Source: a bacterium
Lineage (GTDB): Bacteria > Zhuqueibacterota > QNDG01
Reading direction: 5' to 3'
Assembly (NCBI GenBank): GCA_021158245.1
Contig: JAGGVB010000174.1
Location: 1-37,651, forward strand
Length of the DNA: 37,651 nucleotides
Within the stretch, counting starts at the first letter, position 1; the number at the start of each line of letters is the position of its first letter. Position numbers and translations under genes: made by a program. This document shows, piece by piece, positions 14,957 through 36,803 of this stretch. The notes beneath the pieces were generated by a model, which saw only the letters and a program-made list of their open reading frames with translations, did not search any database and was not told the DNA's origin.

Positions 14957-14959
14957 CGC

Positions 14960-17289: not shown

Positions 17290-18473
17290 CACACACCCAT
17301 CTCTCTTATGATTTTTTCTGTTTTCTGATGAGACAACTTCATAAGATCCTGTTCGTTCAGAACATCTTCTGAACTGGTTTCTTTATTTACAACAACGACT
17401 CTTTCAGTGCAGCAGTAACACGGATCCACAGCAGCAAGGATGAGTGCTGCATCAGCAACTGTTTCTCCAATGCAGGCAATTTCATTTGAAAAAATATTTG
17501 TGTAACTCGGTGCCCTGACTTTGTATCTTGCTGGAAAATTTGATCCGTCACTCTTACAGTAATGATAAACTTCCCCCCGGGGAGCCTCTGCTCTGCCGAT
17601 TCCTTCCCCGGCAGGCAGCTCTTTAATTTTAAGATCAATAATTCCTGGTTTCATCTTGTTAAGGCACTGTTCAATTATTTTTACAGATTCATACATTTCT
17701 AGGATACGCACAACAGCTTTTGCAAATACATCTCCCTCTTCCATCACTACAATATCCCAGTCCAGCCAGTCATATGCAAAATATGGGTCATCTTTTCGAA
17801 CATCAATGGCCAGGCCGGAAGGACGGGCTGTGGGCCCTACAACACAGTACTCTATGGCCTTCTCTTTTGTCAGAACTCCAACACCCTTCATCCTTGCATG
17901 AATTACAGGATCATCCATTACAGCACCTTTGAATATATCAAGAGCAGGTTTTAATTTATCAAGGCCTTTTAATACCCACGGTATATCGTCATCGTTAATA
18001 TCGCGCCTTACACCGCCTACTTTAAACATAGCATAACTCTGCCGGTTGCCTGTAATCTTATCAAATATATCACACACAATTTCACGATATTTCCACGCCC
18101 ACATCCATACAGTATTGTAGCCAATAAAATGCCCTGCGAGTCCGAGCCAGAGCAAATGGGAATGTATTCTCTCAAGTTCGCATATAACTGTTCTGATGTA
18201 CTGTGCCCTTTCGGGAGCTTCAATGCATCCGAGATCCTCCATTGCATTAATTGATGCAGCAGGATGACTGGTAGAGCAAATACCGCAAATTCTTTCAACC
18301 AGGAATACAACCTGATCCCACGATTTTGATTCGGCAAGTTTCTCAATACCGCGGTGATTATACCCTATCTCAATATCCAGTTTAACAACACGTTCGCCCT
18401 CAACGTGAAGTTTAAAAAATTCCGGCTCTTCCTGTAACGGATGATATGGGCCAATAGGAATTATTTCGCTCAT
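17289..18473 (-). CDS. Group 4 [NiFe] hydrogenase large subunit (NuoD/MbhL-like)
   Basis: A 394-residue catalytic subunit. Both Ni ligand pairs are present: RICGICSTSH (Cys63, Cys66) and DPCYCCTER (Cys352, Cys355), so it should bind the NiFe(CN)2CO centre, unlike NuoD or Ehr-type relatives that lost these cysteines. The length and the Arg that ends the second motif fit group 4 enzymes (Mbh, HycE, Ech). A 36-residue tail follows Arg358; in HycE-type proteins such a tail is removed by an endopeptidase after nickel insertion. The upstream NuoC-like gene overlaps by four bases. It reduces protons to H2, or the reverse, at the membrane. Confidence 0.92.
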   Translation of the reverse strand: MSEIIPIGPYHPLQEEPEFFKLHVEGERVVKLDIEIGYNHRGIEKLAESKSWDQVVFLVERICGICSTSHPAASINAMEDLGCIEAPERAQYIRTVICELERIHSHLLWLGLAGHFIGYNTVWMWAWKYREIVCDIFDKITGNRQSYAMFKVGGVRRDINDDDIPWVLKGLDKLKPALDIFKGAVMDDPVIHARMKGVGVLTKEKAIEYCVVGPTARPSGLAIDVRKDDPYFAYDWLDWDIVVMEEGDVFAKAVVRILEMYESVKIIEQCLNKMKPGIIDLKIKELPAGEGIGRAEAPRGEVYHYCKSDGSNFPARYKVRAPSYTNIFSNEIACIGETVADAALILAAVDPCYCCTERVVVVNKETSSEDVLNEQDLMKLSHQKTEKIIREMGV

Positions 18474-18907
18474 TTATCCCTCCTGAGAGGATAGCTGCCT
18501 TCAGGCCAGTCGTCTGGCAGAAGAAGATGTTTCATATCAGGGTGACCTTTAAAATTGACTCCTAAAAGTTCTGCAATTTCCCGCTCAATCCATTCAGCTC
18601 CTTTGATTATTGCAGCAATGGATGCAACCTCAGGATCAGGTTTTTCCGTTTTGATTCTAAGAGAAAGCACCTGTGGAAGCTGGAAAAAATCAAAATGATA
18701 TAGAATTTCTATTACACCATAAGGAGTATCAACACCTGATGCAATTATAAATCTGCCTTTCAGCTCTTTGAATATATATCTGGTAAACTCTTCAATATCT
18801 TCATTATCAATATCAATATATATACGGCGGCTGTTGTGTTCTGCCCATTTTTTTATCTTCTTGCCAAAATTCTTTTGAATGTCAGATTTTATTTCTTCCC
18901 AGGTCAT
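18470..18907 (-). CDS. NuoC/MbhK-like 30-kDa subunit
   Basis: A 145-residue soluble subunit of the complex I 30-kDa family. The diagnostic C-terminal block reads WIEREIAELLGVNFKGHPDM, then KHLLLPDDWPEGSYPLRRDK. Its role is structural, holding the large and small hydrogenase subunits together. ATG 18907 lies 14 bases after the NuoB-like gene. The gene overlaps the large-subunit start by four bases (ATGA). Confidence 0.92.
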   Translation of the reverse strand: MTWEEIKSDIQKNFGKKIKKWAEHNSRRIYIDIDNEDIEEFTRYIFKELKGRFIIASGVDTPYGVIEILYHFDFFQLPQVLSLRIKTEKPDPEVASIAAIIKGAEWIEREIAELLGVNFKGHPDMKHLLLPDDWPEGSYPLRRDK

Positions 18908-18921
18908 CTATTCCTCGATTA

Positions 18922-19347
18922 TTAAGCCTTTTGTTTAACAAGAGCCAGAAGCTTTGCCACACCTGCTATAATACCTTCCGGTTTCGGAGGGCATCCCGGA
19001 ATATAGATATCTACCGGTAAAACCTCGTCAACTGTTTTGGGCATAACATAACTGCCGGAAAAAACACCATGATCAAGGGCGCATGTACCAATTGCAATTA
19101 CAACGCATGGCTTTGGAACCTGCTCATAAACTTCTTTTGCCCTCTGCATTGATTTCATTGTCATATTTCCGGTTACCAAAAGGGCATCTGCATGCCTCGG
19201 ACTCCCCACGAGGACAATACCAAACCGTTCAAGGTCAAACCGGGGAGTCAGGCAGTCAAGTATCTCAATATCACAGTTATTACAGCTTCCTGTTGACAGG
19301 TGGTACACCCATAAGGATTTTGTAAGTGCTTTTAATTTAATTCCCAT
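18922..19347 (-). CDS. Group 4 [NiFe] hydrogenase small subunit (NuoB/MbhJ-like)
   Basis: A 141-residue small subunit carrying a single proximal [4Fe-4S] cluster. Ligands are Cys22 and Cys25 (GSCNNCDIE), Cys89 (IGTCALD) and Cys119 (IPGCPPKP), the full set for MbhJ, EchC and NuoB. It transfers electrons between the NuoI-like/ferredoxin chain and the Ni site in the large subunit. It starts four bases after the NuoH-like gene. Confidence 0.92.
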   Translation of the reverse strand: MGIKLKALTKSLWVYHLSTGSCNNCDIEILDCLTPRFDLERFGIVLVGSPRHADALLVTGNMTMKSMQRAKEVYEQVPKPCVVIAIGTCALDHGVFSGSYVMPKTVDEVLPVDIYIPGCPPKPEGIIAGVAKLLALVKQKA

Positions 19348-19351
19348 AGAT

Positions 19352-20278
19352 TTAAAACCCCATTAAAGCAAGAATAACAGCAACTATTCCTAAAAATGTA
19401 ACAGGACCCCAGAAAAACTTCACAGCCTGATCTATACGCACCCTGGGATTTGTGTTACGTATAAGTATGGCAATTACAAGAAAAAACAGATATTTTAATA
19501 TGGACCACAATATGGACCAGCCGTGGAAGCTTACTCCTCCCCAAAAGATGAGGACAAAAAACATCGGGAGAGTAAAAAACATCATCATTTTTGTGAGTTT
19601 TATTATTGCGAGAGGTGTGCCTGAATACTCAACTTCAAGTCCGCCCATAATTTCTGTTTCAGCTTCAGGAATATCAAAGGGTACAAGAGTAAGTTTTGCC
19701 TGAATAGTCAGGATTACAATTATTAGGGCTATTATACCTGATGCTGATCCTGCAATCATTCCATGAGTCTGCTGAAAAGCAATCAACTGGTTAAGTTTAA
19801 TTGCGCCGCCGGCTTTAATTACAGGTACAGCAACTGCAAGTAGAAAGGGAAGTTCATCAGCAAGCATTAGTTTCATTTCTCTGCTTGCACCGAGAGATGC
19901 AATCGGATTTTTTGATGCAAACCCTCCGATAATAAAGGAAATCGAAGGGATCATTAGAAAATACAGAACTACAATAAGATCACCGATAAAACCTCTGTCC
20001 TGCCACAGCAATGAATTCCATACAATTGTTGAAACAAGAGTAACCGCAGCAAGCCCGAATACAGGAGCTGTAAGAAAAGTTGCTCTGGAGCATGCTCTTG
20101 GTATTACTGTCTCTTTACCGAGAAGTTTAACAATATCAAAAAGAGGCTGCATAAACGGGGGGCCTACTCTCCATTGAACTCTCGCTGTCACTTTTCTGTC
20201 CAGCCAGCTTGCCAGGATACCGACAAAAGCAGTAAAAATAAATCCTGGAAAAATCAGATAATTAAACACTTGTTCCAT
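19352..20278 (-). CDS. NuoH/MbhM-like membrane anchor subunit
   Basis: A 308-residue protein with eight predicted helices. Family motifs are ASWLDRKVTARVQWRVGPPF, QPLFDIVKLLGKE, ELPFLLAVAVP and PFDIPEAETEIMGGLEVEYS; the acidic loop at the quinone/proton-path position is retained. In group 4 hydrogenases this subunit anchors the catalytic arm and links it to the antiporter subunits. It starts two bases after the four-cluster ferredoxin gene. Confidence 0.92.
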   Translation of the reverse strand: MEQVFNYLIFPGFIFTAFVGILASWLDRKVTARVQWRVGPPFMQPLFDIVKLLGKETVIPRACSRATFLTAPVFGLAAVTLVSTIVWNSLLWQDRGFIGDLIVVLYFLMIPSISFIIGGFASKNPIASLGASREMKLMLADELPFLLAVAVPVIKAGGAIKLNQLIAFQQTHGMIAGSASGIIALIIVILTIQAKLTLVPFDIPEAETEIMGGLEVEYSGTPLAIIKLTKMMMFFTLPMFFVLIFWGGVSFHGWSILWSILKYLFFLVIAILIRNTNPRVRIDQAVKFFWGPVTFLGIVAVILALMGF

Positions 20279-20279
20279 A

Positions 20280-20768
20280 TCAGATATATTCTTCCTTTTT
20301 CCAAGGGATTGAGTGTACTATCAAATTTTCCGATACTTCAAACCAGTACTTGTCCTTATCCGGTTTAAAATCTCCGTATTGAACTGCTCCTTTCGGGCAT
20401 TCTCCAACACATACCGGCACCTCTTTATCTTTGAGCCGTCCTTCGCACAGATCACATCTTGATACAAAGTATGTTATGAGTTCGGGCAATATCGTACCGA
20501 AAGGACATGCATAGCTGCACGTATTGCATGCCACGCAAAGAAGGTTGTAACGTTTAACAATATTGTTTTCCTGCTTTTCAAGAGCATCTGCAGGGCAGGC
20601 TGTTACGCAGGGGGCTTCATCACAATGACGGCACGCTATTGCAAATTCCGCAATTTCTCTCAAATAGCGTATTCCATCATTATCAGGGTGGTAAAAATAG
20701 CTGCACCCTACAGTACACTCCTTGCATTTTCTGCACGATTCAAGATCTATGAACAATCTTTTTCTCAT
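20280..20768 (-). CDS. Four-cluster HycB/HydN-like electron-transfer protein
   Basis: A 162-residue protein with 16 cysteines in four groups (12/15/18/22, 46/49/54/58, 78/81/84/88 and 105/108/120/124), enough for four [4Fe-4S] clusters. This is the HycB/HydN/DmsB-like pattern. Such subunits link a dehydrogenase module to the hydrogenase; in formate hydrogenlyases they bridge formate dehydrogenase and the membrane complex. Here the neighbour in that position is the HydB/HydG NAD(P)H module, so it likely bridges that module to the NuoB/NuoI-like chain. I choose ATG 20768 because GGGA lies six bases upstream; ATG 20774 or TTG 20780 are possible. Confidence 0.9.
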   Translation of the reverse strand: MRKRLFIDLESCRKCKECTVGCSYFYHPDNDGIRYLREIAEFAIACRHCDEAPCVTACPADALEKQENNIVKRYNLLCVACNTCSYACPFGTILPELITYFVSRCDLCEGRLKDKEVPVCVGECPKGAVQYGDFKPDKDKYWFEVSENLIVHSIPWKKEEYI

Positions 20769-20770
20769 AC

Positions 20771-21589
20771 TCATTCCCAAATATCCGGCAGGCCCTTCAG
20801 CTGATCATACGTAAAAACAGGGCCGTCCTTGCAAATAAAGTAGTGATCAATAAGGCAGTGCCTGCACTGGCCTATACCGCAGTACATCTTGCGTTCCATA
20901 GAAAGGACTATGTCTTTTGGGCTGACTTTCAGTTCCAAAAGTTTCTTGGTCCCGAACTTCATCATTATCGGCGGGCCGATTACAACGGCTGTCACATTAT
21001 CTCTGTCAAATTTTATATCATCAAGAAGTGTTGTAACAACTCCTTCATGCCCCTTCCATGATTTATCCGCTTTATCTACGGTTACGCGGAGGTCTATATC
21101 TTTTTTAAATTTATCGATCTGATATTTATAAACTATATCATCCGGTGTTCTGGCACCGTAACACATTGTAATTTTGGGGAACTTCTTCTTTTCATTCAAA
21201 AGGCTGTACAATAAGGCCCGTGCAGGAGGGAAACCCACACCTCCGGCTATTAAAATGATCTCCCGCCCATACATTGATTCCAGAGGAAAACCATTCCCAT
21301 AGGGGCCCCTTAACCCAAGAGAATCGCCTTCGTTTGCCTTATGCAGCCTTGAAGTCATATATCCTACATTATTGATTGTAAACTCAATTGTCTGGTTTTT
21401 ATGACTCGGAGAAGACATTGCAAAAGGCCCTTCACCCACACCGGGAAGGGTTAATTCTGCAAACTGGCCGCATTTGAAAGAAAAAGGGGCTTCGGTACGT
21501 AGAATAAAAGTTTTAATACCCGGGGTTTCAGGTATTATTTTCTCAATAACTGCTTTTTGCGGTTTGTATGGATTTTCTGCTTTACTCAT
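20771..21589 (-). CDS. HydG-like FAD/NAD(P)H-oxidoreductase subunit (membrane complex copy)
   Basis: A 272-residue flavoprotein of the sulfhydrogenase gamma/ferredoxin-NADP reductase family. The FAD domain (about 10-105) has GPFAMSS at the flavin-binding position. The nucleotide domain has AGGVGFPPARALL and IGPPIM. A C-terminal [2Fe-2S] site uses Cys237, 242, 245 and 253 (MYCGIGQCRHC). It would oxidise or reduce NAD(P)H and pass electrons to the beta-like subunit encoded just upstream. It is a paralog of the gene at 25579-26442 in the 3b operon, showing that one hydrogenase acquired or shares the other's diaphorase module. NADH versus NADPH preference cannot be read. Confidence 0.88.
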   Translation of the reverse strand: MSKAENPYKPQKAVIEKIIPETPGIKTFILRTEAPFSFKCGQFAELTLPGVGEGPFAMSSPSHKNQTIEFTINNVGYMTSRLHKANEGDSLGLRGPYGNGFPLESMYGREIILIAGGVGFPPARALLYSLLNEKKKFPKITMCYGARTPDDIVYKYQIDKFKKDIDLRVTVDKADKSWKGHEGVVTTLLDDIKFDRDNVTAVVIGPPIMMKFGTKKLLELKVSPKDIVLSMERKMYCGIGQCRHCLIDHYFICKDGPVFTYDQLKGLPDIWE

Positions 21590-21600
21590 AAAAGTTTCCT

Positions 21601-22608
21601 CTATCTCGCCGCAAGGTCTTTTAAAACAACACGCATATCAATTTTCCCCTGACATGCCTCAATACAGCGTCCGCATCCGGTGCAGCCCAATTGGCCGTAA
21701 TTTTCTTCAAGATACTTAAACTTGCAAAAATACCTGTTGCGAAAACGTTCAAAAAGCCTGGGCCTCGGAGTGCCCCCTCCAGCAGTAACAGCATAACCAG
21801 TGTACTGACATGAATCCCACCCTCTCAATTTAACAAATTCTTTTCTGCTTGCATCTTCAAGCATGTAACAGTGGCATGTAGGGCACACATTATTACAAGC
21901 ACCACATTCGACACAAGTCTCCACATGTTTTTTATATACTTCGGATTCCCAGCTTTTTGAAACAATATCCGTATAAGACCCGTTAAAATCAAAATCACGA
22001 TTATTTTTCAGTACTTTAACTCTGGTCTGTTTCCGCATTTTTTCTACAGCCTCGTTTTCCTCCTTCACAACTTCTTTCAGAGCTTTGTCAAACCCTTCCA
22101 ACAATTCTTTTCCTCTGAGGCTGCCAATTTCGACAACATAACCTTCCCACACTTTTGAAATATTAAGGTCAAACCCTCTTGTGGGGAAAGGGTCACCGCC
22201 AACCATAGAACAAAAGCATGTGCTTAAAGGTTTATTACAGTCTGCACTTACAATAATGCTCTCTTCTCTTCTGCTTTGATAAAGAGGATCTGCGAAATCT
22301 CCTCCGAAAGCCTGATCCAGAATTGGCAGCGCAGCAAGATCACATGCCTTAACCCCCAAAAACAGCCATGGCTTATTTTTGTTGTTGTTTTTCTTAATTA
22401 TATTTTCAACAGGAGGTAATAAATAATTTTTCAAAGGCTGCACAGTCCGCACTTCATCAACTATAATAGAATTTATACTGCTGTTGTCAACCTCATGGAA
22501 ATAAAGTCCTCCTTCTTCACGTCTCGGCGCAATAATGAAGAACTTTTCAAGCCAGACATTTAAAATAGATGCCCAGTATTCTCTGCTTATGTAGTATCGT
22601 TCTGCCAT
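21601..22608 (-). CDS. HydB/AsrA-like iron-sulfur subunit (membrane complex copy)
   Basis: A 335-residue electron-transfer subunit of the sulfhydrogenase beta/AsrA family. C-terminal 2[4Fe-4S] motifs read CVECGACNNVCPTC and CTGCGRCIEAC. An N-terminal cysteine set (VKACDLAAL, SADCNKPLSTCFC) matches the third cluster site of the family. The open frame continues 28 codons upstream to a TTG at 22692, but that stretch (VSLFINVQC...) is unlike relatives, and ATG 22608 (MAERYYISREYW) aligns with the usual start. It is the first gene of the 16-gene operon, with a promoter about 280 bases upstream. It couples the flavin subunit to the rest of the complex. Confidence 0.86.
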   Translation of the reverse strand: MAERYYISREYWASILNVWLEKFFIIAPRREEGGLYFHEVDNSSINSIIVDEVRTVQPLKNYLLPPVENIIKKNNNKNKPWLFLGVKACDLAALPILDQAFGGDFADPLYQSRREESIIVSADCNKPLSTCFCSMVGGDPFPTRGFDLNISKVWEGYVVEIGSLRGKELLEGFDKALKEVVKEENEAVEKMRKQTRVKVLKNNRDFDFNGSYTDIVSKSWESEVYKKHVETCVECGACNNVCPTCHCYMLEDASRKEFVKLRGWDSCQYTGYAVTAGGGTPRPRLFERFRNRYFCKFKYLEENYGQLGCTGCGRCIEACQGKIDMRVVLKDLAAR

Positions 22609-22881
22609 AAAAAGATTACCATGTCTTTGTTGAAACAAACCGAATAAATCACTAACTGAATAACATTGAACATTAATAAAAAGACTAACCAAATAAAAAT
22701 TCAGAAGAATTCCCGGATTAAAATCTGTTTCAAATCTTTTACTGCATGAATGATAATGACTTTTTAAAATACAATACGTAAAAATAAGATGAAACCAGCC
22801 AAATTTTAAATCTTCAGCCCCAGTAGGAATCGTAATGGAAAGAATAATAGGATCAGGATTAACACAATTATCAGCTGTACT
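22609..22881 (-). other. Long 5' leader of the membrane hydrogenase operon
   Basis: From the predicted start near 22882 to the chosen ATG 22608 there are about 270 untranslated bases. The final 84 are in frame with the coding sequence without a stop. I found no strong hairpin-plus-T-run attenuator or known riboswitch in it. Confidence 0.35.
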
Positions 22882-22994: not shown

Positions 22995-23504
22995 TCACTC
23001 TGAATCGATAATTTTTATATTTTGGGAAATAAATTTAATTATAGAATCTGCACTTTCTGCACATACGGAGCTGATACTGCCCATAAATTTTAGAGTCTCG
23101 GGTTGAATTCCGATAAAATACGGATCCATTCCACGTTTTGCTATAATATTCATCAAAACTGTAATCGGTACTTTATGTGTTGAAAATGTCGGAACAAACT
23201 TATCTATATCAGAAGCTGAAAACAACTCTGTTTCTCCCGGAAGGCCGCCCAGATCAGCAGCATCAATAAATATAATCGCTTTAATTTCTTTGTTTTCAAT
23301 AAAATCAAAGACAAGGCTCTCAACGCTTTTTTCCTCTTCAGTGAAAACTCTTTCAGGAGAAAACTGTTTGAGAGCCTCTGCTGCTTTAATACCTATCCCG
23401 TCATCACTTCTGTCTCTGTTTCCAAGCCCGACAATAACAACAGATTCCTTGTGATGATTATTAAAAATATCTGCAATTGCTGATTTTATTACATTATCTT
23501 TCAA
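22995..23504 (-). CDS. [NiFe] hydrogenase maturation endopeptidase, HyaD/HycI family
   Basis: A 169-residue protease that trims the C-terminus of the hydrogenase large subunit after nickel insertion. Family motifs: VGLGNRDRSDDGIG (nickel-sensing Asp in RSDD), FIDAADLGGLPGE, STHKVPITVL and FIGIQPETL; the STHK and GIQP pair favours the HycI branch. The start appears to be TTG at 23504, overlapping the hydA stop by 11 bases. It belongs to the 3b operon by overlap. It is the only protease in the window and lies between the two hydrogenase sets, so it may process both the HydA tail (6 residues) and the group 4 tail (36 residues). Confidence 0.88.
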   Translation of the reverse strand: MKDNVIKSAIADIFNNHHKESVVIVGLGNRDRSDDGIGIKAAEALKQFSPERVFTEEEKSVESLVFDFIENKEIKAIIFIDAADLGGLPGETELFSASDIDKFVPTFSTHKVPITVLMNIIAKRGMDPYFIGIQPETLKFMGSISSVCAESADSIIKFISQNIKIIDSE

Positions 23505-24780
23505 TTTTCACCAAATGTGTTGAACAACTTATACAAGGGTCGTATGCCCTTGCAATAACTTCACACTGAAAACGAATTTTATCATCATCAGCATCCTGTT
23601 TAACAAGTGCCTCTACTGCATTTCTCATATACTTTTCAACATCTTCAAGATTTTGTCCCGTAGGAATTACAAAATTTGCCTTATCAATAAGTCCGTCTTT
23701 CATTTTATAATGGTGATAAAGAGTTCCCCTTGGTGCTTCTACTGCACCCACTCCTTCACCATCTAATTGTGAAGGCAGTACAATCTCAGGGTCATCTTCA
23801 ATCTTCAACATTTTGTCAACAATTCCCGGAATTAATTCAAGAGCCCACACAAGCTCAATTGCCTGAGCAAGGTTATTAAAAACAGGATTTTTGAGCCATC
23901 TCGGATTGTAATATTTTTTAAATAGAACGCCTGCTTTTCCCTGAAGCCTCTCGCCCAGATTAACCATACGCGCCAAAGCGCCTACACTGTAAGGCTTTCC
24001 ATTATACAGGCAATGCTTTGCAGCAGAGTGTGCACAGAACTGTTCATTAGTAAGTGATTTATATTCTGCAACATCAACAACACTGCCGTCAGAAATAATA
24101 ATCCGATCTCCTACAATCCCGTATGTTCCGTCACCAGGCTCACAACACATATAAGTTGTCTCTTCCTCAAAAAAATCAGGTATCTCCAGCCCGCCGATCA
24201 GATCTGACCCTATCTCGGCAAATGCAAGCTGCTTTTTAGCCTCGCTCTTTATTCCGAGAAGAGTCTTTTTATCCGGGAACTTTCCAAAACCCCCTACAGT
24301 AGGATTCTCACCATGGATCATACGGCCGCCTGTTACCTGCATTATGTGATTTCCATATTTTTTCAGGCTCAAAGCTCCAAGCACCTCGTCTCCGTATTTC
24401 TCTGCCATTGCTATTGCACTCGGGTAACCCAAAAAGTCCGGCAGGGCAAGTACAAAAACATGGAGGGAATTACTCTCAATTAATTCTCCGAGATGCATCA
24501 GACTGCGTAATAGCTGTACTTTTTCAGGCACTGCAATCCCAAGGGCTTTTTCCAAACCTCTTAACGCTGCATATCTGTGAGAAATAGTACAAATAGCACA
24601 TATCCGGCACGCAATACTCACATCTTCAGCAGGAGTCTTGCCCTCAACCAGTGTCTCAATAAGACGTGTGCCTTCAAATATATCAAAATGAACATCTTTT
24701 ATTTTATTACCGTCCATCCTTATCGAAATCCCGCCTTCTCCTTCTACCCTGGCTAACGGTTCTACAATAATCTCTCTCAT
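23494..24780 (-). CDS. hydA: Group 3b-type [NiFe] hydrogenase large (alpha) subunit
   Basis: A 428-residue catalytic subunit. The N-terminal Ni-binding motif is RICAICTISH (Cys61, Cys64) and the C-terminal one DPCISCSTH (Cys416, Cys419), followed by a short LVKIER tail that the protease encoded next would cut after His422. The conserved RVEGEGG is at 11-17. Gene order beta-gamma-delta-alpha identifies the sulfhydrogenase/NAD(P)-linked group 3b; such enzymes interconvert H2 and NADPH and can reduce sulfur or polysulfide in vitro. ATG 24780 is two bases after hydD. Confidence 0.92.
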   Translation of the reverse strand: MREIIVEPLARVEGEGGISIRMDGNKIKDVHFDIFEGTRLIETLVEGKTPAEDVSIACRICAICTISHRYAALRGLEKALGIAVPEKVQLLRSLMHLGELIESNSLHVFVLALPDFLGYPSAIAMAEKYGDEVLGALSLKKYGNHIMQVTGGRMIHGENPTVGGFGKFPDKKTLLGIKSEAKKQLAFAEIGSDLIGGLEIPDFFEEETTYMCCEPGDGTYGIVGDRIIISDGSVVDVAEYKSLTNEQFCAHSAAKHCLYNGKPYSVGALARMVNLGERLQGKAGVLFKKYYNPRWLKNPVFNNLAQAIELVWALELIPGIVDKMLKIEDDPEIVLPSQLDGEGVGAVEAPRGTLYHHYKMKDGLIDKANFVIPTGQNLEDVEKYMRNAVEALVKQDADDDKIRFQCEVIARAYDPCISCSTHLVKIER

Positions 24781-24781
24781 C

Positions 24782-25561
24782 TTAGAGAACTCCTAATATT
24801 TTCTTTAAAGGTTTCATCATTGCGCTTCCACCATGAATACGGAAACGCCGTTTTATCTCTTCTATTGAGAAATCTTTTTCTTTAAGCAGATTAAACTCAG
24901 AACTCACATTTGCATCCTTCATAGGCCCCCAGCATCCTATACAAGGCAAATTATGTGAAGGGCACGCAGCCCCGCACCCCGCTGCAGTAAGCGGGCCGAG
25001 GCACAATATCCCCTTTAGAAGCAGGCAATCGTTCTCTTTCCACCTGCATGTTGCACAAACAGGATAATCCGGAAACACAGGCATATCATCCTGGAGAAAA
25101 TGCGCATAAATATAAAAAAACTGCGTTGCATCAATAGGGCAGCCCGGAATATAAAAATCAACATCAACAAATACATCAATGGGTTTGGATTCTATCGGAG
25201 TCCTGTTCTCAAAAAAACCGTCTCCGTAAACCTTCTTAAACCGTTCATCCCATCCTTTTGCGCCGAGCTCCATAGCCTGAATACCGCCGTAACATGCACA
25301 ATTTCCCATTGCAACCAGAAATTTGGTGCGTTCTCTTATCTCTTTAACGTGCTTTGCCTGTTCCTGACTGGAGATAGAACCTTCAATAAGTGCAATATCC
25401 AATTCCGTATCATCATTATCACTCTTTGCAAGTGAAAATGATTTAATATTTGCAGTCTGGAAAAATTCCAGCAATTTTTCTTCACTATGAATAATTACAA
25501 GCTGGTCACCATTACACCCTGTAAATCCGTACAGACCAACATTTTTCTTTTCCTGACTCAA
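24782..25561 (-). CDS. hydD: Group 3b-type [NiFe] hydrogenase small (delta) subunit with Asp at a proximal-cluster position
   Basis: A 259-residue small subunit. The start is TTG 25561 with AGGAG seven bases upstream; a longer ORF begins at TTG 25576 but would put that site inside the coding region. The proximal-cluster motif, normally CxxC, reads GCNGDQL, so Cys16 is kept and the second position is Asp19. The other proximal ligands are present (GNCACYGG and IPGCPID). The medial/distal cluster cysteines are also present (VCATCRW, CLGPLTAAGC, ACPSHNLPCIGC). It relays electrons from the beta subunit to the NiFe site. Confidence 0.9.
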   Translation of the reverse strand: MSQEKKNVGLYGFTGCNGDQLVIIHSEEKLLEFFQTANIKSFSLAKSDNDDTELDIALIEGSISSQEQAKHVKEIRERTKFLVAMGNCACYGGIQAMELGAKGWDERFKKVYGDGFFENRTPIESKPIDVFVDVDFYIPGCPIDATQFFYIYAHFLQDDMPVFPDYPVCATCRWKENDCLLLKGILCLGPLTAAGCGAACPSHNLPCIGCWGPMKDANVSSEFNLLKEKDFSIEEIKRRFRIHGGSAMMKPLKKILGVL

Positions 25562-25578
25562 TTTTTTTCTCCTCAAAT

Positions 25579-26442
25579 TTATATGAGACCCTTCATATGA
25601 ATTACGTCCCAGTACGAAAAGACCGGGCCCTCAAGGCAGGTATATATATAACCTCCGATACTGCAGTGCCCGCATTTACCGACACCGCATTTCATTCTCC
25701 GCTCAAGAGTCATAAGTATCTGATGTTTTGGTACATTTAATTTTAATATCTCGGCAACAACAAATTTATACATAATCGGAGGCCCGCACACTGCAAAACT
25801 GGTATTATTGGGATCTATATCAGTTAGATTTGCAAAAAGCCTGGTAATAAGACCTGTCTCATACGGCCAGGCTCCTGTATCATCCTGATCCACTGTCAGA
25901 TGGCAGATCAGATCGTCACGGGTCATCATGTTGAAAAATTCTTCTTTAAATAACATATCATCAGGACGTTTTGCACCGTGAAGAAGGTAAATTTTTCCAA
26001 ATTGATCCCTGTTGTCCAGGGCATAAAGAAGAAGAGATCTTAATGGAACTGCGCCAAGTCCTCCCATTACAATTACAAGGTCCCTTCCTTTCATGTCCTC
26101 AATAGGGAATCCGTTGCCATAAGGGCCTCTCACACCCATAATATGATTTTCTTTCATCTTGAAAATATGATTTGTAACATTGCCAACTCTGCGTATACCA
26201 AATTCAATAAGCCCCGGCCTTGACGGAGTGGAAGATATACTGAAAGGAGCCTCACCTATGCCATTCAGAGAAACCATCATGAACTGGCCAGGCAGGTAAT
26301 TAAGGTTTATAGCTTTTGAGACATCTACCGCCCTTACCTGGAAAAAATTAACATCTTCAGTTAAGGGATATCTTCTAATCAAACGCATAGGTTCCGGAGT
26401 GTACGGATTTCTCGGCTCTGATGCACATGCACAATTTGTCAT
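25579..26442 (-). CDS. hydG: Sulfhydrogenase gamma subunit, FAD/NAD(P)H oxidoreductase
   Basis: A 287-residue flavoprotein of the group 3b hydrogenase. The FAD domain has APFSISSTPS, the nucleotide domain MGGLGAVPLRSLL and CGPPIM, and the C-terminal [2Fe-2S] site uses Cys252, 257, 260 and 269 (MKCGVGKCGHC). It exchanges hydride with NAD(P)H and electrons with HydB. ATG 26442 overlaps the hydB stop by four bases and has GGAGG seven bases upstream. It is paralogous to the subunit at 20771-21589. Confidence 0.9.
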   Translation of the reverse strand: MTNCACASEPRNPYTPEPMRLIRRYPLTEDVNFFQVRAVDVSKAINLNYLPGQFMMVSLNGIGEAPFSISSTPSRPGLIEFGIRRVGNVTNHIFKMKENHIMGVRGPYGNGFPIEDMKGRDLVIVMGGLGAVPLRSLLLYALDNRDQFGKIYLLHGAKRPDDMLFKEEFFNMMTRDDLICHLTVDQDDTGAWPYETGLITRLFANLTDIDPNNTSFAVCGPPIMYKFVVAEILKLNVPKHQILMTLERRMKCGVGKCGHCSIGGYIYTCLEGPVFSYWDVIHMKGLI

Positions 26443-27464
26443 ACTTCCACCTCCTCGCCTTTAAGCCGCATACCGACAGTTCTGATATCAATACCTACCG
26501 GGCATGTGTCAATACAGCGGCCGCATCCGACACATGCAGGCTCATCATATGCGCCGATAAAGGCCTGAAGTTTATGAATAAATCTCAATTTAAGACGTTC
26601 TGATCTTGCCTCCCTGAAGTTGTGCCCTTCAGCTACCATTGAGAATTCACGAAACATACATGAATCCCACTGCCTTATTCTCCTGCCGTCAACAGTGTTC
26701 ATTTCAACTTCATCTCTCACATTATAGCAGGAACATGTCGGGCAGACTATTGTACAGGCACCGCATGAAAGACACTTTTCACCAAGTTCCTCCCACATGG
26801 GATGGTCGTAACTCAGCTCCACAATTCCAGGCATTCCTGTAAAATCCATATTTAACTTAAATTTGGATTCTCTCTCTTTTCTCCACTGAATGTACTTCTC
26901 AAGGTCTTCATGAGTCACTACTTCTCCTATCATTCTCGGACAGCCGCGTACCATATCATCACCGAGACTGGAACCAACCCATACAAGATAAAAATCACCC
27001 AATTCTGTAAAAAAAAGATCAAACCCTTTTTCCACGTTGCTCGTGTTAGTTGTCTTACAGAAACAAAGATCATCGGGAACACACGAATATCCGATAATCG
27101 CAGTGTTGCGCCTTCGCTCCATGTAGTATGGATCTTCAAAATTAATGGAATGAAATCTGTCCATAATCATAAGAGCATGGATATCGCATGGATGCAATCC
27201 GAATAATACTCTTTTAGGAATGTCTGACAGCTCTTCTTTCATACCTTCCTTTGAAAAACTGTACATGGGAAATTCGGGCGGGACAAATAACTTTTTAAAG
27301 GGAATTTTTGTTCTAAGAGCCTTTGTCTCAATATCAGAAAATGAATCAATTTTTGAAAGAGAATAGTGCTCTCCGTTTTTCACAGGGCCCCAAAGTTCTC
27401 CGAATAACTCAATAGTCTTTAAGAACTTATTAAGGTCCTTCTTTTTAAGTTTAACAGCTCTCAT
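26439..27464 (-). CDS. hydB: Sulfhydrogenase beta subunit, iron-sulfur protein
   Basis: A 341-residue electron-transfer subunit, first gene of the 3b operon. Two C-terminal [4Fe-4S] sites are at Cys231/234/237/241 and Cys311/314/317/321. A further cysteine set (Cys93 in HPCD, Cys128, Cys134, Cys136) matches the third site of HydB/AsrA proteins. It links HydG to HydD. The ORF can begin at TTG 27467, but ATG 27464 with GGAGG just upstream is preferred. Two candidate promoters lie 5' (27578-27606 and 27740-27768). Confidence 0.9.
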   Translation of the reverse strand: MRAVKLKKKDLNKFLKTIELFGELWGPVKNGEHYSLSKIDSFSDIETKALRTKIPFKKLFVPPEFPMYSFSKEGMKEELSDIPKRVLFGLHPCDIHALMIMDRFHSINFEDPYYMERRRNTAIIGYSCVPDDLCFCKTTNTSNVEKGFDLFFTELGDFYLVWVGSSLGDDMVRGCPRMIGEVVTHEDLEKYIQWRKERESKFKLNMDFTGMPGIVELSYDHPMWEELGEKCLSCGACTIVCPTCSCYNVRDEVEMNTVDGRRIRQWDSCMFREFSMVAEGHNFREARSERLKLRFIHKLQAFIGAYDEPACVGCGRCIDTCPVGIDIRTVGMRLKGEEVEV

Positions 27465-27577
27465 CAATCCTCCGAAGTTACAAATAAAAACTGCAATTTT
27501 AGTTACTATTTATTATTTCTTTACTGCAATCATCATTATTTTACACTGCTGCTTTTCACTCTAAAACACTTATTATA

Positions 27578-28090: not shown

Positions 28091-30568
28091 ATGACTAAAA
28101 AAAATGCATTGATTATTTCAAGCGACGGCATTGCTGCTTTAGAGTTTAAAAACGTTCTGATAAAAAACGGCTATAAAATATTAAAAATAGCCCAAACAGG
28201 AGAAGAGGGCCTTGAATTATCAGATAAACTAAATCCTGATTTTATTATTATTGATACTCATCTGAAAGGCAGGATAGATGCCATAACAGCCATAAATCAA
28301 ATCTCTGCAAAGCACACCATACCGTTAGTAATTACTACATCAGAAAATGAACTAAATGCTGCCAAAGCAATAAATAAAAGAACCTCAACAAATATATTGA
28401 TTAAACCTGTACAAAAAGATATTCTCATCTACACAATAGAAAACTCAATTCTGCAGGTAAAACTTTACAAAAATGATAAAAAATATTATAATCTGTTTAA
28501 CAGCGTTGCAGATCCTATCTTAATATTCAGAAAAGACAACTATAAAATTCTCGACTGCAACAAAGCATTTTTAAAAAGATACGGATACACAAAATCCCAA
28601 TTAATTAAAATGACCCCGTTTAATCTTCACCCTGAAGAAGAATTGGAAATTGTTAAACAGCGAATCAATATGGCTAATCGTGAATATGAATTTGAGTATC
28701 ATCATATCACAAAAACCGGAGACATCCTTGATGTTTCCATAACAAGTGATGAAATACTTTATGACGGGAAAGAAGCCTTTATCAGCATAATTCACAACAT
28801 AACAACACGGATAAAAAATGAAAACAAAATAAAAAAGCAGGCATTCGAAGCAGAACTTATCTTTAATATCGGGAAAAAATTAAGCCGAAAACTTGATTGT
28901 GAACTGCTTTTAAAAGAAACTGTGGATTCAATAAAAAATCAATTTAATTATTACGGAGTTCTGCTTCTTCTATTCGACAAAAAAAGAGAAAACCTTGTTC
29001 TAAAAGCCATATCAGGGGAACACTCCAAAGTCTTCCCTGCAAAAATGAAGATAAATATAAATGAGGGATTAATCGGAAAAGCAGCAAGAACCGGTGTGCC
29101 AATACTATGCAGGGATGTTTCAAAAAATAAAGATTATATTAACACATCAAACGAGAAAACAAAATCAGAACTTTCCGTACCGATAATCAGCAATAAGAAA
29201 ATAATCGGTGTTATTGATATTCAAAGCAATAAATTAAATGCTTTTTCCGAAGAAGACGAAAAAGTAATTGAAACAATAAGCTCACAGGTAGCCATTGCAT
29301 TAGATAATGCAAAACTTTATAACACCATTAATAAAAAACTGGCTGAACAGAAAAAAACTGCAGCTATTTTAAGGAAAACCCAGCAGGAAACGGACAGAAT
29401 CTTTAATACTGCAATTGACGGTATTATTGTTATTGACAGACAATTTAAGATATACAAAATAAACGACTCACTATTAAAACAACTTAACATATCAAGAGAG
29501 AAAGCAATCGGAGCAAAATGTCATGCGCTGATCCGATCTTCGATATGCAATACTCTAAAATGCCCTATCTACCAGATTAGTGATAAAAATGTTCAATACA
29601 CTCAAACAGGCGTTATTGTTCATGCCCCTGATAAAGAGCTTAAATGCACTATCTCGTCATCTGCCTTTTACTCTGCAGAAGGCCGATTAAACGGCATTGT
29701 CTCCTCTTTTCACGATATTACGGAATACATGGAAATGCAGACTAAACTAATACAGGCAGAAAAGCTCCAATCCATAGGCCAGCTTGCATCAGGCATTGCG
29801 CATGAGATTAATACACCCATCCAATATGTTGGTGATAATGTGAGATTTTTTAAAGATTCTTATAAAAATTTTGCAAAAATAATTGAGCAGACTGAAAATC
29901 TCTGCGAATCAATAAAATCGGGTGGTGATATTGTCCAAGCTGCTGAAAAACTGCATCAGATTAAAGACGAAGCAGGGCTTGATTTTTTAATAAATGAAAT
30001 ACCAACAGCAATTGATCAGACACTTGACGGAGTTGCGAGAATATCAAAAATAGTTTCTGCAATGAAAGACTTTTCTCATCCCGGAGAAACAGAAAAATCA
30101 TTAAATGATATAAACAGAGCAATAGAGACAACTGTTACAATAGCACGAAACAGATGGAAATATGTTGCAGATATTGATTTACAATTAGACGAATGGCTTC
30201 CTCCTGTTCCATGCTATATTGACGAATTCAACCAGGTAATATTAAATTTAATCGTAAATGCAGCAGATGCTATTGCAGATAAAATCGGCAGCTCGGAAGA
30301 AAAAAAAGGTAAAATTACAATTAAAACTAAACCCGCCGGCAATTATATTGAAATTTCCATTAAGGACACAGGAACAGGTATTCCTGAAAAAGTAAAAGAT
30401 AAGGTCTTTGATCCGTTTTTTACGACAAAAGAGGTGGGAAAGGGAACAGGCCAGGGCCTGGCAATAAGCTACTCTGTTATTGTGGAGAAACATAAAGGGA
30501 GTATAGGTTTTGTATCTGTACCAGGGGAAGGCACTGAATTTAAAATTAAACTCCCTATTGATTCATAG
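28091..30568 (+). CDS. Cytoplasmic sensor histidine kinase, REC-PAS-GAF-PAS-HisKA-HATPase
   Basis: An 825-residue kinase without membrane segments. In order: a receiver-like domain (about 5-120; Asp55, Lys105), PAS (130-245), GAF (255-410), a second PAS (432-548), the dimerisation/phosphoacceptor helix with His571 (QLASGIAHEINTPIQYV) and an ATPase domain (NLIVNAADAI N-box, DTGTGIP, GQGLAISYSVI). The second PAS holds three closely spaced cysteines (477, 486, 491; KCHALIRSSICNTLKCPIY), which could bind a metal or cluster or form disulfides for redox sensing. It is transcribed divergently from the 3b hydrogenase and heads an operon with two receiver proteins. The signal is unknown; redox or H2 status is inferred from context. 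Confidence 0.88.
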   Translation: MTKKNALIISSDGIAALEFKNVLIKNGYKILKIAQTGEEGLELSDKLNPDFIIIDTHLKGRIDAITAINQISAKHTIPLVITTSENELNAAKAINKRTSTNILIKPVQKDILIYTIENSILQVKLYKNDKKYYNLFNSVADPILIFRKDNYKILDCNKAFLKRYGYTKSQLIKMTPFNLHPEEELEIVKQRINMANREYEFEYHHITKTGDILDVSITSDEILYDGKEAFISIIHNITTRIKNENKIKKQAFEAELIFNIGKKLSRKLDCELLLKETVDSIKNQFNYYGVLLLLFDKKRENLVLKAISGEHSKVFPAKMKININEGLIGKAARTGVPILCRDVSKNKDYINTSNEKTKSELSVPIISNKKIIGVIDIQSNKLNAFSEEDEKVIETISSQVAIALDNAKLYNTINKKLAEQKKTAAILRKTQQETDRIFNTAIDGIIVIDRQFKIYKINDSLLKQLNISREKAIGAKCHALIRSSICNTLKCPIYQISDKNVQYTQTGVIVHAPDKELKCTISSSAFYSAEGRLNGIVSSFHDITEYMEMQTKLIQAEKLQSIGQLASGIAHEINTPIQYVGDNVRFFKDSYKNFAKIIEQTENLCESIKSGGDIVQAAEKLHQIKDEAGLDFLINEIPTAIDQTLDGVARISKIVSAMKDFSHPGETEKSLNDINRAIETTVTIARNRWKYVADIDLQLDEWLPPVPCYIDEFNQVILNLIVNAADAIADKIGSSEEKKGKITIKTKPAGNYIEISIKDTGTGIPEKVKDKVFDPFFTTKEVGKGTGQGLAISYSVIVEKHKGSIGFVSVPGEGTEFKIKLPIDS

Positions 30569-30595
30569 TAACTTTTTATCAGTATGGGGAAAAAC

Positions 30596-31798
30596 ATGAA
30601 AAACATACTGCTCGTTGATGACGAACCCAATGTACTCTCAGGACTGAAAAGGATGTTGTACCCAATGCACAGTATCTGGAATGTACAGACCGCTGAGAGC
30701 GGCAAACTTGCCCTTGAAAAGATGATCAGTATACCCTTTGACGTTTTAATTACTGATATGCGTATGCCTGAAATGAACGGCCTTGAATTATTAACTCAGG
30801 TAAAGGAGAGATATCCCGATATAATAAGAATTGTTCTATCCGGCCATTCAGACAGAGAAATTATATTAAAATCAGTTAATATTGTACACCAATACCTGTC
30901 AAAACCATGCAGCGCTGATACAATAAAAACAACAATTGAACGAGTTCTTGCAATAAAGAATCTGCTTCAATCATCAAAGATACGTACAGTTGTTTCCTCT
31001 TTACAGCAGCTTCCGAGCCTTCCCGAGCTGTACACTAATATCATGGCTGAAATTCAAAAAGACGAGCCTTCAATAAATGTTGTAGCAGAAATAATAAGTG
31101 AAGATATAAGTATGTCTGCAAAAGTACTGCAGCTTGTAAATTCCGCTTTCTTCAGCCTGCCGCGGCATATTTCATCTATCCAGAATGCTGTGAATCTTCT
31201 CGGGTTAGAAACAATAAGTTCTCTCGTACTGTCAATCAAGATATTTTCTCAGTTTGACAATAAGAGCTTTGACTTTTTCCCAATACACAGGTTATGGTCA
31301 CACAGCCTCCGCGTTGCAAATTTCTCAAAATATATCTCTTCTAAAATTTTAGAAAATCCGATTATAAGCGATTATACCTTTATATCAGGAATGATGCACG
31401 ACATAGGCAGGTTATTATTAGTGACGAATTTCCCCGAAGAGTATAAAAAAATCATTCAGCCTGCAGAAAAAAACTTTGATTTAATTTGCAGTATTGAGCA
31501 GAAGGAGCTTGGTGTTACTCATTCAGGCGTAGGAGCCTATCTTCTTGGTATATGGGGATTTCCCTATCCGGTAATTGAAGCGGTGGCATTCCATCACACA
31601 CCTCTTCAAAGTAAAGACAGCTCATTATCTCCGCTTTCGTTTGTATATATCACAGATTTACTTGACAATATGAATCAATACAAGACAGAATTTAAACCCA
31701 ATGCAGAATACCTTAAAATGATAAATCTTAAAAGTAATCTAACAAATTTTAAAAATGAATATAAAAATTTTCTACTTCGAAAGGATGACAGACAATGA
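30596..31798 (+). CDS. Response regulator with REC and HDOD domains
   Basis: A 400-residue protein. The receiver (1-120) has LLVDDE, phosphoacceptor Asp54 (ITDMRMPEMNG) and YLSKPC. An HDOD domain follows (about 135-340; SLPELYTNIMAEI, ISMSAKVLQLVNSAFF, GMMHDIGRLLLV, AVAFHH), a signal-output domain related to HD phosphohydrolases and common in chemosensory and adhesion pathways. I choose ATG 30596, which has GGGGA seven bases upstream, over ATG 30584. It lies 27 bases after the kinase and overlaps the next gene by four bases, so it is a likely phosphotransfer partner. Confidence 0.85.
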   Translation: MKNILLVDDEPNVLSGLKRMLYPMHSIWNVQTAESGKLALEKMISIPFDVLITDMRMPEMNGLELLTQVKERYPDIIRIVLSGHSDREIILKSVNIVHQYLSKPCSADTIKTTIERVLAIKNLLQSSKIRTVVSSLQQLPSLPELYTNIMAEIQKDEPSINVVAEIISEDISMSAKVLQLVNSAFFSLPRHISSIQNAVNLLGLETISSLVLSIKIFSQFDNKSFDFFPIHRLWSHSLRVANFSKYISSKILENPIISDYTFISGMMHDIGRLLLVTNFPEEYKKIIQPAEKNFDLICSIEQKELGVTHSGVGAYLLGIWGFPYPVIEAVAFHHTPLQSKDSSLSPLSFVYITDLLDNMNQYKTEFKPNAEYLKMINLKSNLTNFKNEYKNFLLRKDDRQ

Positions 31799-32946
31799 AC
31801 AACAGCATTCTGTTTGTAGACGATGATCCAAATATACTCTCAGCGTTCAAACGAACCCTGCACAATAAGTTCGTCATTGATACGGCTGAAAACGGGGAAC
31901 AGGGACTTGAAAAATTGATGACAAATAATAGTTTCGCTGCAGTTGTCGCAGATATGCGTATGCCCAAAATGGATGGAGTAACTTTTTTACAACACGTAAG
32001 AAAATTCAATAAAAATATAATTAGAATAATGCTTACAGGCAATGCTGACATCCAAACCGCAATTGACGCGGTAAATGACGGCCGCGTTTTCAGGTTTTTA
32101 ACAAAACCCTGTCCTCAGCAAATATTGGTAACCACTCTTGAATCAGCATTAGAACAATACCGCCTTATCAACGCAGAACAGGAGCTTTTAAAAAAAACAT
32201 TAACAGGTGCAGTAAAGGTGCTTGTTGAAATCCTCAGCATGGTAAATCCTGCAGCATTCAGCCGTGCCAGCAGAATAAGAAAAATATCCGGACATATCGT
32301 AAAACAGATGGGTCTTCACAATATATGGTTATATGAAGTTTCTGCAATGCTTTCCCAAATTGGGTGCGTAAGCCTTCCTTCGTCCTTATTAAACAAAGTC
32401 TATTCACAAATCGAACTTACTGCTGAAGAGAAAAGATTGTACTCATCTCATCCTATTATTGGTTACAACCTTCTGTCCAAAATTCCCAGATTGGAAGCAA
32501 TAGCATCAATCATTAAAAATCAGGATATACCATTCTCCCAATTCCCTGTAACTTCTGATACCGGAAAAGAGGACACAGAAACAACAGGAGCACAAATTTT
32601 AAAAGCTGCCACAGATTTCGATTTTAAATTAATTTCCGGAATTTCCAAAAAAGATGCTGTTGAAGAATTAAAGTGTGATATTAATATTTATAATCCGAAA
32701 ATTGTGGAAGCGCTTGAATCATATCACTCTATACAGGAATTAAATCAAAAGAAAATCGTCAGAGTTAAAGATTTGATTTACGGTATGGTTGCTTTACATG
32801 ATATAAAAGCCAATAATGGAATTTTACTTGCTGCTAAGGGCCAGGAAATAACATATCCGGTAATAGCTAAACTTCAAAATTTTGCGAGACATGTAGGTAT
32901 TGAAGAACCTTTTGAGGTATTAATGCCTGAAAAAAATCATCATTAA
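31795..32946 (+). CDS. Response regulator with degenerate HD-GYP-like domain
   Basis: A 383-residue protein. The receiver (1-120) has FVDDDP, Asp53 (VADMRMPKMDG) and FLTKPC. The output region (about 140-250) aligns in pattern with HD-GYP c-di-GMP phosphodiesterases, but the metal-binding HD of HDIGK is replaced (MLSQIGCVSLP) and the later HHE/GYP block reads IIKNQDIPFSQF. SSHPIIGYNLL is retained. It is therefore probably non-catalytic, acting by binding. A C-terminal 80 residues (VRVKDLIYGMVALHDIKANN) form a small beta domain seen in related regulators. ATG 31795 overlaps the previous gene by four bases. Confidence 0.8.
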   Translation: MNNSILFVDDDPNILSAFKRTLHNKFVIDTAENGEQGLEKLMTNNSFAAVVADMRMPKMDGVTFLQHVRKFNKNIIRIMLTGNADIQTAIDAVNDGRVFRFLTKPCPQQILVTTLESALEQYRLINAEQELLKKTLTGAVKVLVEILSMVNPAAFSRASRIRKISGHIVKQMGLHNIWLYEVSAMLSQIGCVSLPSSLLNKVYSQIELTAEEKRLYSSHPIIGYNLLSKIPRLEAIASIIKNQDIPFSQFPVTSDTGKEDTETTGAQILKAATDFDFKLISGISKKDAVEELKCDINIYNPKIVEALESYHSIQELNQKKIVRVKDLIYGMVALHDIKANNGILLAAKGQEITYPVIAKLQNFARHVGIEEPFEVLMPEKNHH

Positions 32947-32953
32947 ATATTTA

Positions 32954-32973
32954 GGGTCTACCGAAAAACTAAT
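32954..32973 (+). repeat. Left terminal inverted repeat of the IS
   Basis: GGGTCTACCGAAAAACTAAT, exactly the reverse complement of 34515-34534. Confidence 0.92.
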
Positions 32974-33040
32974 TTATTTGATATGCAGATAAACCCCCGT
33001 TCTTGAAATCTGGTAAATTGTGATTATTACAGATTACTCA

Positions 33041-34389
33041 TTAGATTCTTCTCGCTGCTGTGACCAAGTTACGGCTCAACAGCCCCATATTTATCCATGA
33101 GAGCTCAGTATCAGGCCTCTTGGCACGCACTTGCTTGAGGAGATTATGTTCCTTGGTAACTCCAAATGCACCCTCAATCCGGTTACGTTCTCTTTGTTTC
33201 TTCCTCCGCCATCTTTTATTGTTATTGGCCGCTTTTCCTGTTTTCGGACGCCCCAGAGGCTTCATACTCGTTTTGATTTCGACTCCATCTACATCTTTAC
33301 GTTGTTTTAAATACATTCGATTTTCACGTGTCCCGTATATCTGATCACCTGATGCCCAAAATGGATCTTTATCAAATCGTGTACTGAACTTTTCCACACT
33401 TTCCTGAAATTTGGTTCCTTCATGAAAATTCTCATAATCATGATGATCAAGAAACAGGAAACCATCAACATAACTCAGATTGCCCTTCATACCAAACTCT
33501 ACGGTCTTGCCCGATTTACCTCTGACTATGGGACGGACATAAGGCTTTGATAAGCTAACTATCCGACCTTCAATACTATGTGTTCTGTCAGCATACATCT
33601 TTTTTTGCTGTGCGTAGATATGTTCGACAGTCTCAAAACCTTCCAGAATCTTCCCTGAAACCATATGCCCTTTTACTTCCACTTCTGCGATAAGTTCTGT
33701 CAGTTGGGACATATTCCGCCTCAGATATTGAAGAAGAGATTTGTTCATTCGCCGGATCTCTTTTTTTGTCTTGCGCTTCTTCTTCTGAAATGAACGGTAT
33801 TCTTTTTTCGCTTTTCGACAATAAGTTCTAATCTTGCAACCGACAATCCTGCTCAGTTTACGAATTTGAGTAACACAAAATTCTCTGGATTTATTTAGAA
33901 GGCCGCTGTCATAGGGATATGTAATGTTGCTTTCAAATACTGTGGCATCTACATGGAATCCTTTGGGTTTTATGAGCTTATCCCGGACAAGAGATTCTAT
34001 CATATACGCCTCAAACTCATCAAATTCTTTTTCGCCAAGCCGTTTTCGGGCATTGCTCAAACTCGTATGGTGAAAGGGAGGACGACTTCTGAAATCTTCC
34101 AAACCGATGAAGTATTGAAGATAGGGATTTTGGTAATCTGCAGGGTGATTTCTTCATCACTCATACAAAGAATGTGCTTCAATATCAAAGCACCAAGCAG
34201 CTTACGAGCGGTTATGCCGGGTCTGCCTGTATGACTGAAAGTCTGTGAATATGTTTTCTCAAATCCTTGCCAATTGATTAATTCGGCAAGAATTATCCAG
34301 CGGTTCGTTAAATCAAGATGATCTTTAAAAGGCATAAATGAGCTTAACAATTCTAATTGATTGACATTCGTGATTGAAAGTGCGTACAT
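33041..34389 (-). pseudogene. DDE transposase of the IS, split by a -1 frame change
   Basis: The N-terminal part (34389 to about 34130) has the DUF772/InsH N-terminal pattern (SHTGRPGITARKLLGALILK). The C-terminal part (from about 34130 to 33041) has the DDE core: Asp52 in FHVDATVFE, Asp253 in SGDQIYGTRENR and Glu310 in RNRIEGAFG (numbered from the TTG at 34102). Between ATT-ACC and CAA-AAT-CCC the frame shifts by -1; joined, it gives the family's NPYLQYFIGL motif. There is no A-rich slippery heptamer there, so a single-base deletion is more likely than programmed frameshifting. Otherwise the coding sequence is intact, suggesting a recent event or a sequencing error. Confidence 0.85.
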
Positions 34390-34514
34390 TCAGCCACCAT
34401 AAGTTTTGGGTTAAAGTGCAAGCATTTTTGCTGCTTTTTTCATTTTCTCGTGCACTTTGGTGTTTAAATATACACATTTTTCCCAACTTAATCAACTGTT
34501 TTTATTCATTTTAG

Positions 34515-34534
34515 ATTAGTTTTTCGGTAGACCC
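34515..34534 (-). repeat. Right terminal inverted repeat of the IS
   Basis: ATTAGTTTTTCGGTAGACCC on the plus strand, perfect inverted copy of 32954-32973. Confidence 0.92.
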
Positions 34535-34599
34535 TACATAACAACACAAAAAATACTATATGAATAAAATTCGTCAAGTGGATAATAATTTCCTTGATA

Positions 34600-34616
34600 C
34601 AGGGAAACATTCCCTG
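34600..34616. repeat. 17-bp perfect dyad upstream of the chemosensory operon
   Basis: CAGGGAA-ACA-TTCCCTG, seven-base perfect arms. It lies about 140 bases upstream of a sigma-54-like element and outside the IS. It could be an operator or enhancer site, or a short hairpin. Confidence 0.5.
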
Positions 34617-34755
34617 CTAATACTTAAATACAAATTCTTATTCAAATCTTTTACCCATGATTTTAAATTATTTTCAAATAGCCATTTCTTTATAGTACAA
34701 TATGTTATGTCACTATATTTTTTTTAATAATGCTTGTACACAACAGGCGGTAATC

Positions 34756-34771
34756 CGGCATAATAGTTGCC
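34756..34771 (+). promoter_or_regulatory. Sigma-54-like promoter of the chemosensory operon
   Basis: CGGCAT, five bases, TTGCC, with GG and GC ten bases apart but C for T at the first position. Predicted start is near 34782. A weak sigma-70 alternative, TTGAAA-N16-TATGCT, lies at 34805-34832. Apart from these and the dyad I see nothing in 34535-34922. Confidence 0.4.
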
Positions 34772-34922
34772 TGTACAATTTCTGTAGGTTGAACTATGGA
34801 CTTTTTGAAAAACAAATATTCGATTATATGCTCTTTCTTATTTTCATACTGAACCTTTTATAGTTTCTGACAGAGCTAAAAATTACATTCAAATTCAGGG
34901 TTATAGTTTTTTTTAGATTAAA

Positions 34923-36746: not shown

Positions 36747-36803
36747 CAGAATTGAGGTTTATTAATTAAAATAAGTTGTATTTCAACTGTTCTGGGAGGA
36801 TTT

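Follow-up and report, generated by a model that had tools for sequence, protein, structure and literature searches.

Aspartate at a proximal-cluster ligand position in the small subunit of a bacterial group 3b-type [NiFe] hydrogenase

Aspartate ligation of the proximal cluster in [NiFe] hydrogenases has so far been represented by one solved group 3a enzyme and by group 1h. In the F420-reducing hydrogenase of Methanothermobacter marburgensis (group 3a; PDB 3zfs, 4ci0, and 4omf), FrhG has Asp60 in place of one of its conserved proximal Cys (PMC3591093, which forms an eLife 2013/2014 pair with PMC3930138), and clear cryo-EM density showed three Cys and Asp60 as the ligands of the proximal [4Fe-4S] cluster (PMC3930138). 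The other solved FrhG chains shown, from M. barkeri (6qgr) and Methanothermococcus (9r51), differ from that of M. marburgensis and read CTGC. The group 1h actinobacterial-type hydrogenase of Ralstonia eutropha also has a proximal [4Fe-4S] cluster with three Cys and one Asp (PMC8498564; PMC7174314). In addition, all three clusters of Huc, the group 2a enzyme of Mycobacterium smegmatis, are [3Fe-4S] (PMC10017518). The delta subunit (HydD) of Pyrococcus furiosus SHI (PDB 9e15 and 9nez) has four proximal Cys. For a group 3b enzyme with a proximal aspartate, no prior description was found in the literature, which is weak evidence since most subscription papers lay outside the search.

The hydD gene studied here lies in a bacterial contig of 37,651 nucleotides (JAGGVB010000174.1), referred to as the window. 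Translation of hydD most likely begins with the TTG at position 25561, six bases after an AGGAGA ribosome-binding site; a longer mechanical reading frame has its own TTG start within this site. The predicted protein matched the NCBIfam model NF040836 (sulfhyd_HydD) with an E value of 2.7e-56, under the equivalog cut-off, and P. furiosus SHI delta with an E value of 1e-48. The two HydD proteins belong to the same family, share about 36-38% identity and are part of the same hydBGDA set of subunits. A cofactor-free AlphaFold model of HydD, used for fold only, had a moderate pLDDT of 76, with values of 91-98 around the core of the N-terminal domain, and the predicted fold matched 9nez_A with a TM score of 0.79. 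The features of the locus are listed in the table.

Table. Positions of the hydrogenase genes and of the proximal-cluster motif in the window
Feature	Coordinates	Strand	Evidence or detail
hydB, iron-sulfur subunit	26439..27467	minus	NCBIfam ShyB E 1.1e-86; HydB E 7.5e-84
hydG, FAD/NAD(P)-binding diaphorase-like subunit	25579..26442	minus	NCBIfam PRK08345 E 5e-90; HydG E 2.4e-70
hydD, small (delta) subunit, group 3b-type [NiFe] hydrogenase	24782..25561	minus	259 aa, TTG start at 25561
Cys16-Asn-Gly-Asp19 motif, two proximal-cluster ligand positions, second = Asp	25505..25516	minus	codons TGT AAT GGT GAC
hydA, large subunit	23494..24780	minus	NCBIfam sulfhyd_HydA E 1.7e-104
hydrogenase maturation endopeptidase (HycI/HyaD type)	22995..23504	minus	TIGR00072 81 bits vs 47-bit cut-off

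The hydB-hydG-hydD-hydA genes and the maturation protease gene form a single cluster on the minus strand (22995-27467), and the same hydB-hydG-hydD-hydA order was found at nearly all homologous loci long enough to tell, whether the HydD motif carried Cys, Asp, or Glu. Both NiFe-binding CxxC pairs of HydA are intact (Cys61, Cys64, Cys416, and Cys419), and across 248 HydA homologues only truncated rows and one odd row depart from these four cysteines. The top NCBIfam models were HydD/ShyD (E 1e-56) and HydA/ShyA (E 1e-104 to 1e-97), all under their equivalog cut-offs, and the best sequence and fold matches of HydD were group 3 subunits. Judged by these matches, the enzyme is group 3b-type at the family level and not an SHI orthologue, and the earlier placement of the protein as a 3b small subunit stands; it is a HydD/sulfhydrogenase delta-type subunit in a hydBGDA operon. 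HydG is a diaphorase-like homologue, and the hydrogenase is probably NAD(P)-linked.

The motif stretch of HydD reads GFTGCNGDQL, with Cys16 encoded at 25514-25516 and Asp19 (GAC) at 25505-25507. In an alignment with P. furiosus SHI delta, in which the motif is ungapped, Asp19 fell on the second Cys of CYGC (SCYGCQL); Asp19 therefore occupies the ligand position. Because the next Cys of HydD is residue 88, and no further Cys was read between residues 16 and 88, no neighbouring cysteine is an obvious stand-in at the position of Asp19. The preliminary description, which had reported the aspartate from the codons, allowed for another Cys at the ligand position or for a sequencing error; the alignment speaks against the former, and the latter is excluded by the presence of CNGD, within the full stretch GFTGCNGDQL, in five separate assemblies from the same order (62-91% identity). 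CAGD or CSGE was also found in dozens of further homologues. The replacement of Cys by Asp in the proximal motif of HydD is thus genuine. HydD has Cys at the other three proximal ligand positions, with Cys88 and Cys141 being Cys in 141/141 non-redundant alignment rows, and the medial and distal cluster cysteines are invariant in the alignments. Two candidate compensating cysteines were rejected: Cys26 (LNCED), which many relatives have, is Ser in the source HydD and is also present in Cys types, and the distribution of Cys90 (GNCACYGG) does not track that of Asp.

To evaluate how the residue is distributed, 84,980 species genomes were scanned with two peptide patterns that omit the Asp position and were seeded with Asp and Glu types. 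The scan returned 80 loci, of which the motif-bearing ones had mainly Asp, a few Glu, and a few Cys, in proportions skewed toward Asp and Glu by the seeding. The loci came from bacteria (KSB1, WOR-3, Cloacimonadota, Aminicenantes, Acidobacteriota, Planctomycetota, Calditrichota, and Bacillota) and archaea (Thermoplasmata, Thorarchaeota, Lokiarchaeota, Bathyarchaeota, and Hadesarchaea). Sampled phyla were also searched with profiles, which gave the best-scoring loci per phylum and not frequencies. Among these loci, the common bacterial 3b motif FASCDGCQL, a Cys form, was found in the Planctomycetota sample and the rest of the source phylum, Thermoplasmatota and Thermoproteota mostly had Cys, and Asgard archaea were mixed. 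As to whether the aspartate is usual in bacterial 3b enzymes, which the preliminary description left undecided, the sequences surveyed indicate that it is the normal residue of a large clade related to SHI, whereas the most common bacterial 3b enzymes (FASCDGCQL) lack it.

In the 244 homologues that cover the motif, its two ligand positions were Cys-Cys in 128, Cys-Asp in 105, Cys-Glu in nine, and Asp-Cys in two, with no other combination. Restriction of the second position to Cys, Asp, and Glu is the pattern expected of an iron ligand. Drift after loss of a ligand would predict Ser, Ala, Asn, or Gly. A change from Cys to Asp takes two base changes and one from Cys to Glu takes three, and no intermediate residue was present at the second position in the 244 homologues. 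These data leave little room for a proximal cluster that has been lost or become non-functional by drift in a decaying enzyme; such decay would account for the one missing canonical ligand and nothing more, and, set against conservation in two domains, an intact operon, intact remaining ligands, and the exclusive use of Cys, Asp, and Glu, it is barely credible. As separate observations, CNGD has a mirror image in two genomes on the Bacillota side: loci L124 and L129, which were sampled together with the Bacillota genome of L079, place Asp first and keep Cys second (FTSDAGCQL and FTSDGGCQL). Glu at the position of Asp19 (CSGEQ or CWGEQ) was seen at eight loci that occupy at least three places in the tree, and six loci have tandem Cys ahead of the motif (TCCxGCQ or ACCEGCQ), recalling the extra cysteines near proximal clusters.

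The known aspartate-ligated enzymes were then compared with HydD. The motif letters of the FrhG and Huc PDB chains were read out with short made-up baits, and the letters quoted are those of the PDB chains; a short PDB probe with the source HydD's own motif gave no match. Chain 3zfs_B (M. marburgensis FrhG) reads G56-C57-T58-G59-D60, and full-length alignments agreed on the offset, so that the Asp60 of its CxxD corresponds to the position of Asp19. FrhG and the source enzyme also have in common that they belong to group 3, are cytoplasmic, and come from an anaerobic host, although the FrhG enzyme is of group 3a, uses F420 as partner, and has FrhB in place of HydB/HydG. The likeness to group 1h is one of ligand set, and that enzyme belongs to another group with a different small subunit and oxygen-respiring hosts. 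FrhG Asp60, rather than group 1h, is the closest structural precedent for HydD Asp19, and it was missed by the preliminary description, whose group 1h parallel is itself correct (PMC8498564; PMC7174314).

The observed features are the residue itself, its alignment to the ligand position, the restriction to Cys, Asp, and Glu, the intact other ligands and operon, repeated evolution, and the positional match to FrhG Asp60. From these we infer ligation by Asp19 in HydD, the cluster type, and a redox effect with the direction of its shift. The probable explanation is a [4Fe-4S] cluster with three Cys and one Asp that tunes electron transfer in a hydrogenase that is anaerobic and probably linked to NAD(P). 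The cluster would most likely be bound by Cys16, Cys88, Cys141, and the carboxylate of Asp19, and the carboxylate would most likely shift the midpoint potential and the pH dependence or proton coupling of the first electron relay beside the NiFe site. A relay shifted in this way could alter the catalytic bias or match the relay to its partners, and the carboxylate would not serve as an oxygen-tolerance device.

The main rival reading is that the cluster in the CxxD site is of the [3Fe-4S] type, or switches between [3Fe-4S] and [4Fe-4S], with Asp unbound or weakly bound and the first relay of high potential or responsive to iron. Ferredoxins with CxxD, such as that of P. furiosus (Asp14), undergo this interconversion. 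Huc chains (PDB 7utd and 8dqv) resemble HydD in lacking the second Cys of the proximal CxxC, and the residue homologous to Asp19 is Asn and not an acid; as Huc contains [3Fe-4S] clusters only (PMC10017518), loss of the fourth Cys can yield a three-iron cluster, which counts against the four-iron explanation. However, a free iron corner would predict Asn, Ser, Ala, or Gly among the 244 homologues, which had Cys, Asp, and Glu alone, and FrhG holds a ligated [4Fe-4S] cluster with the same CxxD (PMC3930138). Furthermore, a cluster of higher potential beside the NiFe site would poorly suit an anaerobe whose chemistry runs at the NAD(P) or ferredoxin level. A three-iron or interconverting cluster is accordingly considered unlikely.

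The preliminary description also pointed to a link with oxygen. On a second rival reading, the Asp protects the enzyme in the way proposed for the group 1h actinobacterial-type hydrogenase, which has the same three-Cys, one-Asp set and is O2-insensitive (PMC8498564; PMC7174314). The source genome (95% complete) and five Asp-bearing genomes of its order were searched for heme-copper oxidase (PF00115) and cytochrome bd subunit I (PF01654), and neither was present. In the wider sample, PF00115 was found in 2/40 Asp-type, 3/4 Glu-type, and 19/36 Cys-type genomes; the sample is small and lineage-confounded and nitric oxide reductases are matched by PF00115 as well, so that these counts prove no rule. 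A few carriers of Asp or Glu do have oxidases (two and three genomes: G065 and G068; G014, G022, and G026), as oxygen protection would allow. In contrast, 38 of the 40 Asp-type genomes were without PF00115, the oxidase-rich genomes were those of typical Cys-type 3b enzymes, and the host of FrhG is a strict anaerobe. Oxygen protection thus appears very improbable, and an aspartate at the proximal site should not be taken as a sign of oxygen tolerance. The source enzyme likewise does not fit the O2-insensitive group 1h type, its best matches being group 3 subunits and its host genome showing neither oxidase.

The evolution of the ligand site was traced on a tree of 140 non-redundant rows from which the motif columns were left out; the tree was a quick build, with many inner branches open. 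At least seven changes between acid and Cys and at least ten changes overall were counted, with the direction of change left open, and a single clade of all acid rows was rejected (p-AU 5.1e-47). Asp therefore does not mark one clade and has instead changed repeatedly with Cys and Glu. A set of 61 rows (SH-aLRT 99) combined the Cys-bearing P. furiosus HydD with nearly all acid forms, and at two loci (L195 and L251) Asp was gained separately within a well-supported FDFAxCEGC group. Acid-bearing forms span bacteria and archaea and lack a single origin. Gly preceded the first Cys in 53/55 acid rows versus 14/84 Cys rows, a difference carried by only four independent well-supported contrasts, and those columns of HydA in which acid types differ from Cys types track the deep split. 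We tentatively propose, as a serious possibility that falls a little short of probable, that in SHI-related 3b enzymes the identity of the fourth proximal ligand works as an evolutionary switch. It would have moved between Cys, Asp, and Glu (in rare cases with the Asp in place of the first Cys) seven times or more in bacteria and archaea, mostly anaerobes, and would set the cluster potential and catalytic bias. No earlier description of Glu ligation of a proximal cluster was found in the searchable literature.

Asp19 of HydD is real, functional-looking, and common to a broad group, and it represents a known kind of proximal ligation rather than a new one. Asp at the proximal site is a standing feature of many SHI-like enzymes of uncultured anaerobes, including Asgard archaea. 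The useful part is that one operon occurs naturally with Cys, Asp, or Glu at this site and has a solved Cys relative, P. furiosus SHI, which makes the effect of a carboxylate by the NiFe site testable via a one-residue swap.

The surroundings of the hydrogenase cluster were also annotated. Directly downstream on the minus strand (11581-22692), a second HydB/HydG-like pair (21601-22692 and 20771-21589) is accompanied by a HycB-like Fe-S protein (20280-20780) and by a group 4 Mbh-type [NiFe] hydrogenase whose membrane subunits resemble Mrp antiporters. This downstream set may form an energy-converting hydrogenase that has an NAD(P)H input module of its own, and two other loci (L025 and L026) have an identical arrangement after hydBGDA. 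On the other side, a divergent plus-strand region adjoining the hydrogenase cluster (28091-37501) encodes a large PAS/GAF sensor kinase and HDOD/HD, response-regulator, and chemotaxis-like proteins.
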